Virus record (IMG/VR): IMGVR_UViG_3300010399_000251
Location: 1-30,166 of that record
Direction: 5' to 3' (one strand)
DNA: 30,166 nucleotides
Origin: a virus
Shown here piece after piece: positions 469 through 12,428 of this stretch. Both the position numbers and the translations under genes were made by a program. Each line of letters starts with the position of its first letter. Position 1 is the stretch's first letter. Under the pieces are notes generated by a model. The model ran no database searches and was not told the DNA's origin. It saw only the letters and a list, made by a program, of their open reading frames with translations.

Positions 469-635
469 GGCTTGTTCCTATAATAATTATTATAAAGCTT
501 AGCTAGCCCGGACGGCGATACATGCCTATCGACCATAGTGCGCGTCATCTTGACACTAGTAAAAGCTTCGCCTTTGGGCTTAACCCAATGGGTCCACAAA
601 AGTGCTGCAAAGAACTCCGGCTCCCAAACAATCAT
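465..635 (-). CDS. WEPEF-family micro-protein, member D
   Basis: A 56-residue protein, short enough to be missed by a 60-codon cutoff, found by translating the gap between its neighbours. It begins MIVWEPEFFAALLWTHW and ends in a Tyr/Asn-rich tail (LYNNYYRNKP). The signature W4-E5-P6-E7-F8 and the W14/W17 pair match member B closely. Its ATG at 635 overlaps the TGA of the VWA gene, and its own TGA at 465-467 overlaps the ATG of member C, so all three are probably translated as a coupled set. The function is unknown. The exact overlaps at both ends and the shared N-terminus argue strongly that it is real. Confidence 0.75.
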   Translation of the reverse strand: MIVWEPEFFAALLWTHWVKPKGEAFTSVKMTRTMVDRHVSPSGLAKLYNNYYRNKP

Positions 636-1828
636 CGCCGACCCCGCTTGATAATCGCGTCCAAGCCCACGCTGCGCATCTTAAATTGGTCCCGAAACGC
701 GTCCACGTTGGCCTGGTACAAAACCCAAGTCCATACACTCGGCCGTTTCGGCGCGACCAACTCCGCCTGTCCGTCCGTCAGAACCAACACAGCGTCGGGA
801 TAGCGCGCCTTGCGCAAGCAGTATTCCTCGACGGGCGTGAAGTTTGTCCCGCCCCCCCGCATTGGCATCACCGTGTTGGTGCGAAAATCCGCCCAAGTCT
901 TCGTCTCGGTGTTGAAAAGAATAACTTCTAGGTCATAGGTCGCGCCCGAGTTGCGCACCAAGTTGCACAAGCGATCAACGCCCGACTCATCCATACTTCC
1001 CGATACGTCGATGGCGATAAGCGCCGACTTGCGCGGCTGAGGGGTCCGGCGCGGAAGGACTGCCTCCCGCCCGGCAAACATATCGACTCCCGCATAGCGC
1101 TTGGGGATGTTGCGCCAGGTTTCCTTCACTTTCGAGGAATCCAGGGTTTCCGCCATGAAGCGCTCCCATCGTGCTTGCTCATCCGAGACTAGAACCTGCG
1201 CCGGCTTGTCGCTTTTGGCGGTTCCCCATTCCTTCGTGACTTCGATTTTGTTGCCACTGTCTGTGCCCGGCGCATCCGCTCGCGCCAATTGCGCCTCAGC
1301 GTCGCCTGTGGCGTCCCCAGCGCTTCCCGCGGGAGGAGGTGGGTACTTGGCCGCAATTTCCCGCATCAGCGTTTCTACGGCATCCTGGCGCGTATCGCGG
1401 CCAAGCATGGAGGGTCCGTCAACGCCTTTCGGGACCCGCGCATAGCCCAAGCTGTAGAGCAAGTCGTTGATTTGGCAATCCCGCGCGTAGTTGTGCAAGA
1501 GCGCCCCGTCCCACCCGTTATACCAGTCTTTCGGATTTTCCTTGAAGTCCTGTCCCGCCATCAAATCTCCCGCCAGGAGATGCTGCGTCTCATGCACCAT
1601 GATGGTCTTGACTTGGGCAGGCGAAAGGCCCTTCAAGTGCAGCGGGTTAAACCCCAGGATGATGCCAGGCCTGCCCTTGCGCGCCATGACGGCCATAGGC
1701 GCGTCGAGCGTGATTGGCGCAACGGCGGTCACCTCCTGTAGGATAAGATCGGCATTAACGCGCATATCGACGCTAGTGGCGTGGTAAGCAATTTCTTTGA
1801 TGAGGGAAAGGATGTCACTTGTTTTCAT
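632..1828 (-). CDS. VWA-domain protein with HExxH metallopeptidase-like N-terminal domain (DUF2201-like)
   Basis: A 398-residue protein with two recognisable halves. The N-terminal half has a zincin-like motif, VHETQH (H79, E80, H83), followed by ARDCQINDLL (115-124), which resembles the conserved D-x-x-I-N element of the DUF2201 N-terminal putative metallopeptidase domain. A Pro/Gly/Ala linker (about 163-192) follows. The C-terminal half is VWA-like, with a full MIDAS set: D274-x-S276-x-S278 in AIDVSGSMD, T329 in GGGTNF, and D352 in LVLTDGQ. VWA proteins of this type usually partner MoxR AAA+ ATPases, and such an ATPase lies in the same operon (2980-3945), separated by six micro-protein genes. 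The likely role is adaptor or effector of a MoxR-driven remodelling machine. Its substrate is unknown. ATGA overlaps join it to both neighbours. Confidence 0.88.
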   Translation of the reverse strand: MKTSDILSLIKEIAYHATSVDMRVNADLILQEVTAVAPITLDAPMAVMARKGRPGIILGFNPLHLKGLSPAQVKTIMVHETQHLLAGDLMAGQDFKENPKDWYNGWDGALLHNYARDCQINDLLYSLGYARVPKGVDGPSMLGRDTRQDAVETLMREIAAKYPPPPAGSAGDATGDAEAQLARADAPGTDSGNKIEVTKEWGTAKSDKPAQVLVSDEQARWERFMAETLDSSKVKETWRNIPKRYAGVDMFAGREAVLPRRTPQPRKSALIAIDVSGSMDESGVDRLCNLVRNSGATYDLEVILFNTETKTWADFRTNTVMPMRGGGTNFTPVEEYCLRKARYPDAVLVLTDGQAELVAPKRPSVWTWVLYQANVDAFRDQFKMRSVGLDAIIKRGRR

Positions 1829-2806: not shown

Positions 2807-2980
2807 TTAGTAGAGCGACTGGCGCATTGCACGCCACATCCGCTCTACCCCGTTGTGCGTCGGCCATCCGGGGAGCCCCTCAGCCTGACGCGAGTAGTGA
2901 TAGCCGCGACGTCGCCCGTTGATTATGTCGTCAAGCTCCCAGTACGCAATCCAGAACTCCGGTTCCCACACGACCGGCAT
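2807..2980 (-). CDS. WEPEF-family micro-protein, member J, directly after the MoxR gene
   Basis: A 57-residue protein below the usual length cutoff, beginning MPVVWEPEFWIAYWELDD. It has the complete W5-E6-P7-E8-F9 signature, and its E-F-W-I-A run matches E-F-W-V-A in member E. The C-terminal half is basic and ends ERMWRAMRQSLY. The MoxR stop and this start share bases (TGATG), so the two are probably made in a fixed ratio by translational coupling. A terminator follows its stop. This tight link to the ATPase is the best contextual evidence that the micro-proteins belong to the MoxR-VWA system. The molecular function is unknown. Confidence 0.75.
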   Translation of the reverse strand: MPVVWEPEFWIAYWELDDIINGRRRGYHYSRQAEGLPGWPTHNGVERMWRAMRQSLY

Positions 2981-3945
2981 CACGTGATGGGCCCGTGCTT
3001 GGCCTCATACTCCGCGCGGAGCTTGCGCAATTCGGCCATCTTGTCCCACACCATCTCTGGAGTGATATTGGCGGCTTTCATTGCCTCTGCCAAGTCCTCG
3101 GTAGCTTGCGCCAAACTCGGGTCATTCAGCGCCTTCTGGAACTTCTCCTCCATCCAGATTGGCGGCGGTCCCGCCGACTCCGCCTTCTCGATTCCCGCGG
3201 CGCTCACCTTGAGATTACCCAGCATCTCGCGCAAGCGAGCCACCGGCACCTGGGGGTCGTTGAACGCCCGTTCGAGCGGCATGCCGGCAGCGAACGCCAT
3301 TGCAGCGTACACCAAGCGGCGCGGCGGGACGTACACGTTCTTGACGTGCTCCGTGTACCAAGACTCGAACGCCGCCTCGGCGGGGCCTTCACCCAACACC
3401 TTGCGCATTGGGACCTGGGGATACTCTGGCACCACGTCAATGAACGCATGGAAGCGGTCAATCAACGCGTCGTCCAATTGCTGGACGTCATACTGGCCTT
3501 GGCCAGGCGGGTTGATACCCGTATGGATGGCCTTGAGCTTGGGAAGCGGTTTGCCGTTGATTGTCTTGAATTGGACAATCTCGAAAATCATGTTGAGCGT
3601 GCGCGGTGATGCGCGATTCAGCTCATCCATGAAGATGACTTCCGCTTCGAACAACTCGGGCACGCTGAAGAATTCCAGGACGCCCTTTTCTTTGTTCGGG
3701 ATTGGAATCCCGCCAAAGTCGATCTCCGGGTCCATCAGCGGGGCGCTCTTGTACCACAACTTGAGCCCCGCTTGCTTGCAAGCGTCTTGGATGGCGCTAG
3801 TCTTGCCCACCCCATGCTTGCCGACAAGCATGACGTTGTGGCCAAGCTTGGTATAGGTGATAAGGTCCTGAACCAGCAAATCGTAAGCTTTGTACTTCGT
3901 ACCCGCCGATTGCACTGTCTTCTCTGTTTTCTTTGCCTTAGCCAT
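2980..3945 (-). CDS. MoxR-family AAA+ ATPase
   Basis: A 321-residue AAA+ protein. Walker A is G42-K-H-G-V-G-K48-T49. Walker B is IFMDELNRA (D107, E108), with the E-L-N-R-A form typical of MoxR ATPases. A sensor-1 Asn lies in TGINPP (N145), and an arginine-finger region in LDDALIDRF (R164). A helical lid follows, to about residue 245. MoxR ATPases act as chaperone-like remodelling enzymes with VWA partners, and one is encoded downstream (632-1828). The C-terminal tail (262-310) is odd: it is a gapless homologue of the small protein encoded just upstream (3938-4174). AGGAGG precedes the ATG, and the start overlaps the upstream gene by eight bases. Confidence 0.92.
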   Translation of the reverse strand: MAKAKKTEKTVQSAGTKYKAYDLLVQDLITYTKLGHNVMLVGKHGVGKTSAIQDACKQAGLKLWYKSAPLMDPEIDFGGIPIPNKEKGVLEFFSVPELFEAEVIFMDELNRASPRTLNMIFEIVQFKTINGKPLPKLKAIHTGINPPGQGQYDVQQLDDALIDRFHAFIDVVPEYPQVPMRKVLGEGPAEAAFESWYTEHVKNVYVPPRRLVYAAMAFAAGMPLERAFNDPQVPVARLREMLGNLKVSAAGIEKAESAGPPPIWMEEKFQKALNDPSLAQATEDLAEAMKAANITPEMVWDKMAELRKLRAEYEAKHGPIT

Positions 3946-4174
3946 TGTTGGCCTCCTTTTTTAGGGCGCGTTGCCGCGCCATTTCTTTCCAAACCGTAGC
4001 AAAACTAAGCCCAGCAGCCTCTAGCAGCCGTTCTAATTCAGCCGTCTTCGCCGCCATAGCCGGATCTTGCTGCGCGGCTAGAAACTGCGGTTCGTTCCAG
4101 GTTGGCGTTTCTTTTTGAGCCTCTTGTGCGAGCCAATCCTCTGCACTCATGGCTTCGATCTCGTTAGCTGTCAA
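3938..4174 (-). CDS. Small protein homologous to the C-terminal tail of the adjacent MoxR ATPase
   Basis: A 78-residue helical protein. Residues 24-72 align without gaps to MoxR residues 262-310, with about 18 identities in 49. They share P-x-W-x-E-x-x-F at the start, D-P, A-A, V-W-x-x-M-A and R-x-L at the end. It looks like a free-standing copy of the ATPase tail and may form mixed assemblies with it or compete for the same partner. The sequence W-N-E-P-Q-F-L-A-A also echoes the micro-protein signature. I chose the TTG at 4174 because it overlaps the upstream stop (TTGA) and has a GAGGTG ribosome-binding site. An ATG at 4150 is a reasonable alternative that keeps the homologous domain. Confidence 0.8.
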   Translation of the reverse strand: MTANEIEAMSAEDWLAQEAQKETPTWNEPQFLAAQQDPAMAAKTAELERLLEAAGLSFATVWKEMARQRALKKEANNG

Positions 4175-4608
4175 TTCAGCACCTCACCTTTCTTCGATGC
4201 ACCCAAGGAAAGCTTAACGACATCGTTGCCGGCGGGGTCATTATGTTCACGCACACGGCCCTTAATCTCATCGACGCACTCATCGCTCAACTCGGTGACT
4301 TTGGCGGCTCCAGCGCGGAATTTTGCCTCAATTTCCGGGTCTGCGAGCTTCTCGCGAAGTGTCGCGATTGTCGCGGTCACGCCTTCGCAAGCATCTTCCC
4401 CTTCCATCCAATGCGCCAGGAGGTCTGCTGCCAATTCCTCGATGGCGTGCTCCGGCATCATGACCATAACACGAATCGCCATGGCCTGGACTTCAGGGTT
4501 GTCAAGGATTGCCAAGATGACGCCTGGGGTCCCGCGCACTGCGTCACCTTCAGGCAAGTTGTTGTGGACTAAGAAATGGGCTACAAGCCCAAGCTGTGCA
4601 GTTTGCAT
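4171..4608 (-). CDS. Hypothetical alpha-helical protein upstream of the MoxR module
   Basis: A 145-residue protein, mostly predicted helical and acidic, with no signal peptide or clear membrane segment. The middle is hydrophobic-helical (VQAMAIRVMVMMPEHAIEEL), followed by a charged helical region. I recognise no family. A CGGAG ribosome-binding site lies just before the ATG. The gene ends in a TTGA overlap with the MoxR-tail homologue, so it belongs to the same coupled operon. A structural role in the ATPase complex, or a substrate role, would be speculation. Confidence 0.75.
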   Translation of the reverse strand: MQTAQLGLVAHFLVHNNLPEGDAVRGTPGVILAILDNPEVQAMAIRVMVMMPEHAIEELAADLLAHWMEGEDACEGVTATIATLREKLADPEIEAKFRAGAAKVTELSDECVDEIKGRVREHNDPAGNDVVKLSLGASKKGEVLN

Positions 4609-5631: not shown

Positions 5632-6000
5632 ATGCCTAACCCCTTGATTCCATTCTTTTTTTACGGAGAATTGAAAGACAAGCGTAAGCCCAACACAGTC
5701 TCGACGCCCGGACTCTTGCGCATGCGGGGCGATGATGCGGCGGCGCGGTTCGGAAACTATGGTGGTCATCGGGTTTGGGGACAAGTCAAGTATGTGCGCA
5801 TGGAAGCTGTTAAAAACCTGGATAGGTTTGAAGCCCCGGAATACAAGCGCGTTGTGGTGCGGCTTTCAAACGGGACTAGGGCCTTCGCTTATGCGGACAT
5901 AAAACCAGCTTGGGAACACGAGGACGTCGTGGAGGACGGCATCTATCGCGGTAAGCGTACGCTAAGAATTGACGCGGTCAAGACCAAGCGCGACCCATAA
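5632..6000 (+). CDS. Gamma-glutamylcyclotransferase-like (AIG2-fold) protein
   Basis: A 122-residue protein. Near the start it has FFFYGELKDK (8-17), the Y-G-x-L substrate-binding loop typical of the gamma-glutamylcyclotransferase/AIG2 fold. Later it has VWGQV (48-52) and NLDRFEAPEYKRVVV (62-76), matching the family's L-D-x-F-E-...-Y-x-R segment; E67 would be the candidate catalytic residue. Family members cleave gamma-glutamyl-amine or gamma-glutamyl-amino-acid bonds, but the phage substrate is unknown. The start at 5632 is chosen for its AGGTGG site and because it puts the motif in its usual place. It has its own extended -10 promoter and stands alone between minus-strand blocks. Its last 39 bases overlap a minus-strand gene tail-to-tail. 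Confidence 0.75.
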   Translation: MPNPLIPFFFYGELKDKRKPNTVSTPGLLRMRGDDAAARFGNYGGHRVWGQVKYVRMEAVKNLDRFEAPEYKRVVVRLSNGTRAFAYADIKPAWEHEDVVEDGIYRGKRTLRIDAVKTKRDP

Positions 6001-6117
6001 GTCATACGCTTCGTCGATGCATTTGTCGACCTGCCGATTGTAGTTCCCATTCCCCAAACCCGTTTCGACGCCTAGCGCCCAAACTGCCAGAATCGTTTCG
6101 ACGTCGATTGGAATCAT
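5962..6117 (-). CDS. Distal WEPEF-family micro-protein (51 residues)
   Basis: A 51-residue protein beginning MIPIDVETILAVWALGV. It matches member F (2007-2180), which begins M-T-P-I-D-G-E-F, in P3-I4-D5-x-E7 and W13. Phe8 of the signature is replaced by Thr. The tail is soluble and acidic. Its ATG at 6117 forms an ATGA overlap with the 6114-6512 gene, the same arrangement as in the main array. The last 39 bases overlap the end of the plus-strand cyclotransferase-like gene. Membership rests on a short N-terminus and the overlap pattern, so it is less certain than the array members. Confidence 0.6.
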   Translation of the reverse strand: MIPIDVETILAVWALGVETGLGNGNYNRQVDKCIDEAYDLWVALGLDRVNS

Positions 6118-8521: not shown

Positions 8522-8982
8522 AATTCCGCACAACCCACGACCACACCTTATTCCCCAACGTCACTCGCGAGTTCAACGACGCGCAGCCCTGGTTTGCCGG
8601 CTGGACTTGGAGTGTAGGGAAAGGTGGGATAAATCTCATCGATCCCGCCCGGAACCATTTCTTCTTTCCCTGGACGTCTGTTCAGTACATGGTGACTAAT
8701 GACCAAGAAACTAGTGATGGGGCCGAGTGGCCCCAAGCCCCAGGTGTCGGAGTTCGACCGGCTGTTGGAAACGCAAATCCTCAAGCAAGCGGGTCAGTCC
8801 CAAACCTCCCGCTCAGCGTTCCAGCAGGCGAAGCAGCGGCTCCTAGCCCGCCGAGCGACTCTGTTCCCGATGCAGCTGGCGTTCATCATGAGCCCGGCCA
8901 AGAAGAAAGCGGCAGTGTGCACCCGCCGCGCGGGAAAGACGTTCGCGTGCCGCCATCTGGCCGCCGAGGCCGTAGTAAATAG
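8518..8982 (+). CDS. Small protein with a long out-of-frame extension over terL
   Basis: The frame starts in an ATGA overlap with the GNAT-like gene. The first 60 or so residues look like a real small beta domain, with INLIDPARNHFFFPWTSVQYM near its end. In this position phages often carry a protein of about 70 residues ending soon after such a segment. Here no stop occurs until 8982, so the frame runs 284 bases into terL. The extra 90 residues are Pro/Gly/Ser/Arg-rich and look like a shadow of the terL frame. Either the protein really has this tail, or a frameshift (biological or sequencing) hides an earlier stop near 8700. Confidence 0.55.
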   Translation: MKFRTTHDHTLFPNVTREFNDAQPWFAGWTWSVGKGGINLIDPARNHFFFPWTSVQYMVTNDQETSDGAEWPQAPGVGVRPAVGNANPQASGSVPNLPLSVPAGEAAAPSPPSDSVPDAAGVHHEPGQEESGSVHPPRGKDVRVPPSGRRGRSK

Positions 8983-10255
8983 CGAGTGGTCCGACCGCCA
9001 GAAGGCACAACCTGTGGTGCAGTACATCACCACGACCCGCGCCAAGGCCCTCGACCTGTTCTGGACCCCCTTCAAAGAGCTTTGCCGCGAGATTGGACTG
9101 GAGGCGCACTGGGACGACCACTCCCTCCGCGCCCAATTCCCCAATGGCGTCCTGGTTCGCGCCGGCGGGTGCGACGATCGGGAGGCGATTGAGTCCTACC
9201 GCGGTGATGCCTACGTCCTAGTCATTGTCGATGAGGCCGCCTCGCTAGGGGTCCGGGCCGAGGAGCTTGTGGTGGCGGGTATCTCCATGGCCCTTGCTGA
9301 CTACGGCGGGACTATCGCCATGATCGGGACGCCGGGACAGGTCCAGGCGGGGATCTTCTACCAGGTCTATTGCAACAATCGCGAAGGCTGGGAGAAACCT
9401 TTCAAGTGGTCCTACATGACCAACACCGCCTTTCCCCCGGAGGTCCGGACGGACCAGTGGGTGCGGGAGAACATCGGGCCTCTCGACTCCCCGAAGGTCT
9501 TGCGGGAGGCCTATGGCGAGTGGGTGCCGGACAGCTCCACGCTGGTTTACTCGGGTTACGAGGAATCCAAGGTTAAGTGGGACGGCAAGCTTCCCGAGGG
9601 CCACCAATGGCGCTATATCCTGGGGATGGACCTGGGGTGGAACGACCCGACCGCCTTCGTTGTAGGAGCCTATGCCAAAACGCACCCAAACCTCTACATC
9701 GTGTTTTCAGAGTCGGCCCCTCATCTACTACCCACCCAGGTCGCAGAACGCATCCTGGCCCTCCAGGCGCGCTTCCAGATCACCCGAATTGTGGTCGACT
9801 ACGCTGGTGCGACGACCAAGGGAAATATGGCCGAGTGGAACATGCGCTACGGGTTCGGGATGGTAGCCGCGGAAAAGTCGAAAAAGCTGGATTATATCGA
9901 ACACCTGAATTCCGAGTTTTACCGGGGCATGATCAAGATCGCCCCCTCGGCCCAGAAGCTCAAGAACCAGCTGGCGACCCTCCCCTGGGCCGAGTTGGAC
10001 CCGGAGCAGGTGCGCCACGACACCAAGCAGTCCCTCAAAGAGCATCCGGGATTCGAGAACCACGAGACGGACGCACTTTTGTATTGCTTCCGCGAGTCCC
10101 TCCACTACCGGAGCAAGGTCCCGACAGCCGACGAGCCGTACGGGACGGAGGAGTGGCACCGGCTCCAGCAGCTACACGCCAAGCGCACCGCCTTGAAGAA
10201 TGCGGGCAAACCGGCTAAGTTCAAGTATTCTCAACTCACTAAGAATGGTCGGTAA
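8699..10255 (+). CDS. terL: Terminase large subunit
   Basis: A 518-residue packaging motor. The ATPase domain has Walker A C-T-R-R-A-G-K80-T81, Walker B YVLVIVDEA (D178, E179) and a coupling segment IAMIGTP (206-212). The nuclease domain has the expected acidic residues: D311 in ILGMDLGWNDP, D367 in IVVDYAG, and D458 in HETDALLYC, the RNase H-like two-metal site. The length is normal for the family. It cuts concatemeric DNA and pumps it into the prohead through the portal encoded next but one. The chosen start at 8699 has only weak GGTG upstream; starts slightly downstream are possible. Confidence 0.95.
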   Translation: MTKKLVMGPSGPKPQVSEFDRLLETQILKQAGQSQTSRSAFQQAKQRLLARRATLFPMQLAFIMSPAKKKAAVCTRRAGKTFACRHLAAEAVVNSEWSDRQKAQPVVQYITTTRAKALDLFWTPFKELCREIGLEAHWDDHSLRAQFPNGVLVRAGGCDDREAIESYRGDAYVLVIVDEAASLGVRAEELVVAGISMALADYGGTIAMIGTPGQVQAGIFYQVYCNNREGWEKPFKWSYMTNTAFPPEVRTDQWVRENIGPLDSPKVLREAYGEWVPDSSTLVYSGYEESKVKWDGKLPEGHQWRYILGMDLGWNDPTAFVVGAYAKTHPNLYIVFSESAPHLLPTQVAERILALQARFQITRIVVDYAGATTKGNMAEWNMRYGFGMVAAEKSKKLDYIEHLNSEFYRGMIKIAPSAQKLKNQLATLPWAELDPEQVRHDTKQSLKEHPGFENHETDALLYCFRESLHYRSKVPTADEPYGTEEWHRLQQLHAKRTALKNAGKPAKFKYSQLTKNGR

Positions 10256-10257
10256 TT

Positions 10258-10464
10258 ATGGATCCCCAAGAGCTTCAATTTGTTACCGCTCTCATCAACA
10301 ACGCGCGCACGCAAGGTGTAGCCGAGATCACTTACAAGGGCTTGACCGTCAAGTTCCGCCATGCTCCCGGCACGGAAGTCCAGACGGTCCAGATACCTAA
10401 GCGCGCCCCGGCACAATTCAACTGGTCCACGGACCTGACCCCGAACCTCCCGAAGGCTGAGTAA
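10258..10464 (+). CDS. Small protein between terminase and portal
   Basis: A 68-residue soluble protein beginning MDPQELQFVTALINNAR. The predicted helix is followed by a beta hairpin (VAEITYKGLTVKFRH) and a Pro-rich end. It starts three bases after the terL stop and its stop overlaps the portal start (TAATG). Small proteins here are common in podovirus-like genomes, but no function can be read from the sequence. Confidence 0.75.
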   Translation: MDPQELQFVTALINNARTQGVAEITYKGLTVKFRHAPGTEVQTVQIPKRAPAQFNWSTDLTPNLPKAE

Positions 10465-12428
10465 TGGGCTACGACGATAAAGGCAATTCCGCTCCCAATA
10501 TTGACTGGTGGTGCGATGAGGAAGTTATTGAAGGCCAGCGGCACGCGGTGGCTTTTGGCTGTCTTGCTGCTTTGCGCTCTATGCAGTCGCCGCGCTTGTA
10601 CGCCGGACTGCTCTACGAAGCAACCTACGAACAACGGAACATGTTCAGCTCCGATGTAGCGACCTCCAACGTTTTCCCGTCGATGGGGTTTGGCCCCTGG
10701 AGCGGCAAGATGGAGGTCAACCTCCTGACCTATAACGCCATGCAAGTCGGGTTCGACACGCTGGTGTCCAAGTTGACGCAGGCGGACAGCCGCATCGAGT
10801 TCTTGACTGATGGCGGCAACTGGCAGGCCCGCAAAAAAGCCCAACAACTTGAGAAACTCTGCAAGGGCGAGTTCTACCGACTGGACTTTTATGAGCATAA
10901 ACAAGAGATTGAATTGGATATGCTCCTTCATGGGCGGGGCTATCTTAAGTTTTACATCGATCATACGACGAAAGCGCCCGCCATTGAGCGCGTCCACCCC
11001 CTCGATATCTTCTACGATGAACTTGAAGCGCGAGATAACCCTCCGCAGACCATGTATCAAGTACGAATTGTGGCAAAGTCGACCCTCAAGGCGCAATACC
11101 CGGAACTAGCGGAGCAAATTGACGCCGCTCAGATGTCCGGCGACAGCCTCGTCTACTCGACCCGCGGGATTAACATCAATCAGATGTGCGAAATCCTGGA
11201 ATGCTGGCGTTTGCCCAGCGTGACTGGGGCCGGGGACGGCCGGCACGGCCTGTTCATCATCAATGCGACGCTGGAGTACAGCGAGTGGACCGAAATGGAG
11301 TTCCCTTTCGCCACCATGACCTGGACTAATCGGCGTCGGGGCCCCTATCCTGTCCCGGCAGCGGAGCAGGTGATCTTCCTGCAGCGCAATTTGAACCGCC
11401 TGATCCAGCGGGAGCATGAGTGCATCTACACTTTGAGCGCCCCTTACCTTCTCCTGCCTGAGTCGAACCAGGTGGATCCGAACAATTTTGCCACCGACGT
11501 CGGCAATATGGTGCCATACCAGGATGGGTCGGGCGCAAAACCCGAGTTGATCGTCAACAAGGTCGTCCCCGATGACATTCGTGTGTCGATTGCTCAGCTT
11601 AAACGCGATATTTCTGATATTCTTGGTATTACTGGCCTTGAGTCCGTGGGCGAAAAGCCTGCCGGCCTGGATTCCCAGCCTGCTCTTCAGGAGTTTACCG
11701 AGCAAACCTCGCTCCGACATGAGAAAACCCTGAAGGAAAACGAGCGGTTTGTGCTCCGCGCGGGCATGAAACTGCTCACCACCATCCGCCAGATCAAGGA
11801 ACAGTACGGGGATTACGCCGCTTTCGGTCAGGGCCGCAAGGAAGTGGAGGAGATCAAGTTCTCCAACGCCGATTTGCCGCCCAACGCGTACCGGATGCAG
11901 CTGGCGAACGCCAACATCCTGCCGACAACCCCCGCGGGACGCCTCAACCGCATCACGCAACTGGCGGGGACGGGCGCTTTCAGCCCGAAGGAAGTCATCC
12001 GCATGTTCCAGTCGCCCGATATCGAGGCGATCATGGACGACGAGACGTCTACCATTGAGGATATCGAGTGGACGATCTACGAACTGACGCGGGAAGGCGG
12101 GAAATACCTGCCTCCAACGGAATTCCAGGATCTCCAGGTTGGTATCGAGAAGGTAAACGCCGCGCTGCTCAAGGAACGCCGGCTTGGCGCGCCCGATGAG
12201 GTCATGGAGCGCCTGGATCGCTGGATTGCGGAGGCCCTCCAGATGCAGCAGGACCAGCAGGCGGCCATGATGAAGCAACAAATGCAGATGCAGCAGGCCA
12301 TTCAGCCTACTCCTGCCGACCCGAACAACCCGAACGCGACGATGAACGCGCCTGGCGCGGCTCAGTCAGCTAACTCTCCCGGCTTACCGCCGGGTGGCCT
12401 TGGTGGCGGCCAGCCACCGCAGCAATAA
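10464..12428 (+). CDS. Portal protein
   Basis: A 654-residue protein in the canonical place after the terminase and before the scaffold. Its N-terminal half has portal-like features: an early Tyr/Trp-rich region, LLHGRGYLKFYIDH near 150-165, and HPLDIFYDELEARD near 173-187. A long helical region in the C-terminal half would form the stem and crown. The C-terminus is unusual: a Gln/Met run (MQQDQQAAMMKQQMQMQQA) followed by a Pro/Gly/Asn-rich tail, which probably forms a flexible barrel or crown extension. It forms the dodecameric DNA gate at one capsid vertex. The call rests on position, size and these patterns. Confidence 0.88.
   Translation: MGYDDKGNSAPNIDWWCDEEVIEGQRHAVAFGCLAALRSMQSPRLYAGLLYEATYEQRNMFSSDVATSNVFPSMGFGPWSGKMEVNLLTYNAMQVGFDTLVSKLTQADSRIEFLTDGGNWQARKKAQQLEKLCKGEFYRLDFYEHKQEIELDMLLHGRGYLKFYIDHTTKAPAIERVHPLDIFYDELEARDNPPQTMYQVRIVAKSTLKAQYPELAEQIDAAQMSGDSLVYSTRGININQMCEILECWRLPSVTGAGDGRHGLFIINATLEYSEWTEMEFPFATMTWTNRRRGPYPVPAAEQVIFLQRNLNRLIQREHECIYTLSAPYLLLPESNQVDPNNFATDVGNMVPYQDGSGAKPELIVNKVVPDDIRVSIAQLKRDISDILGITGLESVGEKPAGLDSQPALQEFTEQTSLRHEKTLKENERFVLRAGMKLLTTIRQIKEQYGDYAAFGQGRKEVEEIKFSNADLPPNAYRMQLANANILPTTPAGRLNRITQLAGTGAFSPKEVIRMFQSPDIEAIMDDETSTIEDIEWTIYELTREGGKYLPPTEFQDLQVGIEKVNAALLKERRLGAPDEVMERLDRWIAEALQMQQDQQAAMMKQQMQMQQAIQPTPADPNNPNATMNAPGAAQSANSPGLPPGGLGGGQPPQQ

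Follow-up and report, generated by a model that had tools for sequence, protein, structure and literature searches.

The 78-aa protein encoded directly upstream of a MoxR-type AAA+ ATPase in this phage is homologous to the C-terminal tail of that ATPase. Judged from the sequence, this is a real domain duplication, so far unique, within a chaperone operon of a type already known from phages. The window analyzed is the entire virus contig of 30,166 bases; none of the collections searched yielded a close relative of it. A tailed-phage structural block is located on the plus strand (terminase, 8699-10255; portal, 10464-12428). The genes on the minus strand are arranged in the order 145-aa protein, 78-aa protein, MoxR ATPase, microproteins, VWA protein and more microproteins; they are packed tightly, and many are joined by ATGA-type overlaps. 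The features concerned are the following:

632..1828, minus strand: VWA protein with an N-terminal zincin-like metallopeptidase domain, the MoxR partner (Pfam DUF2201/DUF2201_N; phrog_1314)
2980..3945, minus strand: MoxR-type AAA+ ATPase, 321 aa (Pfam bpMoxR/AAA_3/AAA_5)
2992..3189, minus strand: MoxR tail module, about residues 253-318, defined by homology to the 78-aa protein
3938..4174, minus strand: 78-aa stand-alone tail protein, an open reading frame (ORF) homologous to the MoxR tail
about 3951..3957, minus strand: AGGAGG ribosome-binding site of MoxR, within the 3' end of the 78-aa gene (from the sequence)
4171..4174, minus strand: TTGA overlap between the stop codon of the 145-aa gene and the TTG start codon of the 78-aa gene (from the sequence)
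4171..4608, minus strand: 145-aa protein (ORF), the next gene upstream of the 78-aa gene, no function assigned

The original prediction that residues 24-72 of the 78-aa protein align without gaps to MoxR residues 262-310, with 18 of 49 positions identical, proved to be exact. The best local alignment pairs residues 18-74 of the 78-aa protein with MoxR residues 256-312 (57 columns, 35% identical, no gaps), with a BLASTP pairwise E-value of 1.6e-8 and a phmmer score of 26.5 bits. The observed alignment score of 96 was reached by none of 5000 shuffles, the maximum of which was 73, and the Gumbel P was estimated to be about 6e-7 to 7e-7. Scanning all six frames of the record with MoxR as the query returned only MoxR itself and the 78-aa ORF (E 1.8e-6). 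The original prediction had named a comparison with shuffled helical sequences as one that could refute it. In a test close to this one, using 745 real segments with a content of A/E/K/L/Q/R/M/D of at least 60%, the best scores were 43 against the 78-aa protein and 49 against the tail, and the homology was accepted because these peaks lie so far from the observed 96. BLASTP, shuffles, six-frame scan and helix-rich controls thus all agree that the stand-alone duplicate of the tail is real. The residues common to both copies are W, F, DP, A, L, AA, VW, MA, R and L, and the aromatic residues W26, F31 and W62 of the free copy correspond to W264, F269 and W300 of MoxR.

No DNA match between the two copies was detected by blastn beyond 8-mers. 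Codon positions 1, 2 and 3 are identical at 28, 27 and 18 of the 49 aligned codons, respectively; the third positions are the most diverged (a modest difference between positions 1 and 2 versus 3, Fisher P 0.02), and 10 of the 18 identical residues are encoded by different codons. The lack of DNA similarity together with third-position divergence is the pattern expected for an old duplication that has been kept at the protein level. Together with the intact frame, the third-position divergence speaks for two coding copies that have both been maintained, rather than for a recent duplication or for a remnant in decay, on the basis of a single sequence pair, which falls short of a full selection test.

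The copy was correctly predicted to adjoin the ATPase gene; it can be added that, as the string is transcribed, the 78-aa gene precedes MoxR. The 78-aa gene starts with TTG, preceded by GAGG about 7 bases upstream, and an alternative ATG is present at residue 9. The gene overlaps both its neighbors, sharing 8 bases (3938-3945) with the MoxR reading frame, and the sequence from the MoxR ribosome-binding site through the start codon reads AAAAAAGGAGGCCAACA-ATG. Because of the placement of this ribosome-binding site and the gene overlaps, the 78-aa gene and MoxR are probably translationally coupled. A canonical slippery heptamer, A_AAA_AAG, was also observed towards the end of the 78-aa reading frame and in register with it (about 3954-3966, minus strand), just ahead of the MoxR ribosome-binding site. 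A -1 frameshift at this site fusing the 78-aa frame into MoxR was rejected; the heptamer is probably incidental, since a shift by -1 does not lead into the frame of MoxR. The neighboring 145-aa and 124-aa proteins were considered as further copies of the module and ruled out by pairwise comparison, the 145-aa protein being unrelated to both the 78-aa protein (P 0.46) and the MoxR tail (P 0.65).

The 78-aa protein is predicted to contain helices at residues 11-20, 28-36, 38-53 and 58-77. The AlphaFold2 model, for which the supplied alignment included both copies, has a mean pLDDT of 74, with values of about 81-89 across residues 31-70. It consists of four helices, the last three of which form the module common to the MoxR tail; the shared module comprises residues 18-74, and the first, N-terminal helix is an extra one of the free copy's own. 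The module is predicted to be a compact helical unit.

The Pfam scores of the MoxR ATPase are above the cut-off for AAA_5 and at the cut-off for bpMoxR. It contains Walker A (G42-T49) and Walker B (D107-E108) motifs, and residues G42, G45, G47, K48, D107, E108, N145, R164 and R209 are invariant across its relatives. N145, R164 and R209 are presumably the sensor 1 Asn, the Arg finger and the sensor 2 Arg, respectively. The nearest solved folds found by Foldseek were NorQ (E 1.4e-10), including NorQ-NorD complexes, and CbbQ (E 1.3e-9); the matched chains have about 230-267 residues, and the aligned part is the AAA+ module. This module ends at around residue 247, where the homology to the relatives stops, and is followed by an Ala/Gly/Pro-rich low-complexity linker at about residues 248-262, which precedes the tail. 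The location of the tail outside the NorQ/CbbQ-like AAA+ core and after a low-complexity linker fits an independent docking module. In the AlphaFold2 model of MoxR, built without the free copy, the core is confident and the tail has low confidence. One row that came from the phage-record collection was left out of the alignment used for structure prediction. The helices of the modeled tail (263-272, 283-291 and 296-317) broadly match in position those expected from the free copy (266-274, 276-291 and 296-315), within the limits of this low-confidence region.

Related phage MoxR proteins have a conserved extension at their C-terminus; the idea that the tail is this extension was found to be unsupported. 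The profile of the tail pair matched the extension profile of the relatives with an hhalign probability of 2% and the three closest MoxR relatives with one of 0.2%, and the MoxR segment before the tail matched the relatives' profile at 79%. The tail looks like an addition made in this lineage after the AAA+ module, on the low-complexity linker, and is probably derived, since the MoxR relatives are without it. The set of relatives, drawn from phages, viral contigs and genome contigs, comprised about 130 loci (redundant) with 78 distinct C-terminal regions; the tail was absent from all of them, and no convincing free copy of it was found nearby. A comparison of each locus's own MoxR with its other ORFs gave two kinds of match, both of which were rejected as tail copies: the ORF in loci L024 and L073 is antisense to MoxR, and that in L138 is a second full-length ATPase. 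A two-copy profile gave no other significant match among the 15,485 ORFs of the MoxR loci (next best E 0.11). No homolog of the module was found by tblastn against 50,697 phage records, in viral contigs with either a single-protein query or the two-copy alignment, or in the whole records of 22 MoxR-bearing viruses, a scan that had no positive control. Nothing resembling the free copy was found in the PDB by sequence or by fold or in BFVD, and the 78-aa protein matched no family in Pfam, PHROGs or NCBIfam. These results indicate that there is no close relative and are not proof of absence, because some of the scans used a few short peptide patterns or a two-sequence profile. The module therefore appears, as far as these searches extend, in this phage only, and with a single genome carrying it, no argument can be drawn from conservation across phages.

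The VWA protein encoded downstream of MoxR contains an HETQH motif and the MIDAS residues D274-S276-S278, T328 and D352. H79, E80, H83, D274, S276, S278, T328 and D352 are invariant in the alignments. A VWA gene directly follows MoxR in 94 of the 113 loci with a VWA match, with a spacing of -74 to 143 bases; the MoxR-VWA pairing is conserved across the relatives. In this phage, the two genes are on the same strand and in the same order, 1151 bases apart, with five microproteins between them (1825-2980). MoxR-VWA gaps of 1.2-1.7 kb were also observed in L037, L090, L046 and L047. In N4-like phages and in PHROG 1314, the VWA-metallopeptidase is often annotated as 'HNH endonuclease', and the aligned proteins carry HExxH and the VWA MIDAS; this label looks like a propagated misannotation. 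A second protein in the contig (29606-30148, plus strand) has a zincin-like motif, WHEATH, and is separate from the VWA-metallopeptidase.

Ten microproteins of about 50-68 aa are encoded on the minus strand, at 1-289, 286-635, 1825-2010, 2177-2757, 2807-2983 and 5962-6117, the first of which runs off the contig. They have an N-terminal motif, M-[IV]-[VP]-[WYFI]-[ED]-x-E-[FTI], encoded by varied codons, and their remaining sequences are unrelated. This set of proteins sharing their N-termini is real and odd. The motif gave one chance match in the ORFs of the other loci (15,485 ORFs scanned in all) and eight isolated pattern matches in viral contigs, none of them with MoxR, VWA or the tail. It was originally proposed that W-x-E-x-x-F of the tail and the free copy is close to W-E-x-E-F of the microproteins, and that all three may bind one receptor. 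This part of the prediction did not hold: the spacing differs, the microprotein motif is located at the extreme N-terminus and is absent from both the MoxR tail and the 78-aa protein, and none of 22 pairwise comparisons was significant after counting (lowest P, 0.036, arising in a different part of the protein). W.E..F itself occurs 70 times in the 1.24 million ORF residues scanned, including in the portal protein of this phage. Rejection of the microprotein link leaves the main observation, the duplication, unaffected.

How might the free copy act? In the CbbQO and NorQD systems, the MoxR hexamer is joined by a single VWA protein, which reads the substrate via its MIDAS, and the VWA partners bind both the ring and the substrate (PMC4660213, PMC9976466). 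For jumbo phages, in which the MoxR/VWA-metallopeptidase pair is known, a role in virion assembly has been proposed (Iyer et al., 2021, PMC7824862). In the proposed mechanism, a short, mostly helical module would have joined the C-terminus of MoxR after the AAA+ lid, via a flexible linker, and a second copy would have been retained as a separate gene directly upstream. MoxR and the downstream VWA-metallopeptidase would form a remodeling chaperone, probably for virion proteins, and six tails on flexible linkers would surround the MoxR ring, by analogy with CbbQO and NorQD. The free copy would either pack against the tails of the ring or occupy the site at which the tails dock, whether this is on the VWA protein, on the substrate or on the face of the ring, and in either case would tune the number of engaged tails. 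Action of the free copy on the ATPase, or sharing of the tail's partner, is plausible because the two proteins contain the same module, their genes belong to one tight string, and the ribosome-binding site of MoxR lies inside the 78-aa frame. The chances that the free copy acts in trans on this same MoxR-VWA machine are considered about even, its partner and the direction of regulation being suppositions. It is proposed more tentatively that the phage may control its own MoxR-VWA machine through a separately translated copy of a docking module, as a translationally coupled trans regulator or subunit. Of the mixed oligomers suggested originally, only tail-tail contact is retained as possible; joining of the AAA+ ring by the free copy is unlikely, because it has no ATPase domain. 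In addition, 37% identity over 49 residues may permit different partners for the tail and the free copy.

Other explanations of the duplication were weighed. The small protein may have existed before the tail, with a job of its own (for example, as a virion, scaffold or host-directed protein), and MoxR may have later captured a copy of it as a tail that directs the ATPase to the site or complex occupied by the small protein, leaving the free copy as a client or landmark rather than a regulator. The tail-less MoxR relatives, which make the tail a probable derivative on MoxR, and the extra N-terminal helix predicted for the free copy would agree with this order of events. However, the searches yielded no homolog of the small protein elsewhere by which an independent role could be demonstrated, and a shared function would explain its tight coupling with MoxR just as well; this origin is regarded as rather unlikely. 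The 78-aa gene could instead be what is left, at the 3' end, of a second MoxR gene that arose in tandem and whose ATPase domain was lost; it would then be translated and have no selected function. If a tandem duplicate lost its 5' part in this way, the surviving tail copy would sit exactly upstream of the intact gene. Nevertheless, the frame, the ribosome-binding site and regularly shared residues persist although the DNA similarity is gone, and a functionless remnant so old, with third codon positions the most diverged, should have decayed, making this explanation improbable.

A single motif in the tail, the free copy and the W-E-x-E-F microproteins, through which all of them would bind the same receptor (the VWA protein, for example), is suggested by some letters that the 78-aa protein has in common with microprotein m3, such as EPxFxAA, and by the position of the microproteins, which flank the MoxR and VWA genes as well as lying in the interval between them. 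This reading is nonetheless very improbable, given that W, E and F are spaced and placed differently, that no alignment is significant and that W.E..F also occurs by chance in unrelated ORFs. Chance convergence of two Ala/Glu-rich helical segments could be imagined from the richness of both in helices. It is practically negligible against a score of 96 (maxima of 43-49 for the 745 helix-rich segments and 73 for the 5000 shuffles) and rare W, DP, VW and M residues shared at fixed spacing over 57 ungapped positions.

If the free copy indeed acts on the MoxR-VWA machine, it would be a regulator or subunit that works in trans and that the MoxR system has derived from itself. Pairs of MoxR and VWA genes are widespread in phages: only a few searches yielded some 130 loci. 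The free module could be used as bait for the binding partner of the tail, and its removal or excess would probe regulation of the machine by the tail.

The CbbQ-CbbO and NorQ-NorD systems are not known to include a terminal extension that is also encoded as a separate protein. Their MoxR core fold is like that found here, and their MIDAS-containing VWA protein is the substrate adaptor (PMC4660213, PMC9976466). The p618/p892 pair of Acidianus two-tailed virus consists of interacting, virus-encoded MoxR and VWA proteins involved in tail assembly (cited in PMC4660213, PMC7824862); set against this phage by description only, it differs in lacking the peptidase domain (PMC7824862). The pairs of jumbo phages (PMC7824862) and of N4-like phages, the latter labeled as ATPase and either 'HNH endonuclease' or metallopeptidase, have the same two genes, in the same order and with the same HExxH and MIDAS residues, as the phage described here. 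Unlike in those pairs, MoxR here carries an extra tail, a free copy of this tail is encoded upstream, and the two genes are separated by 1151 bases containing five microproteins.
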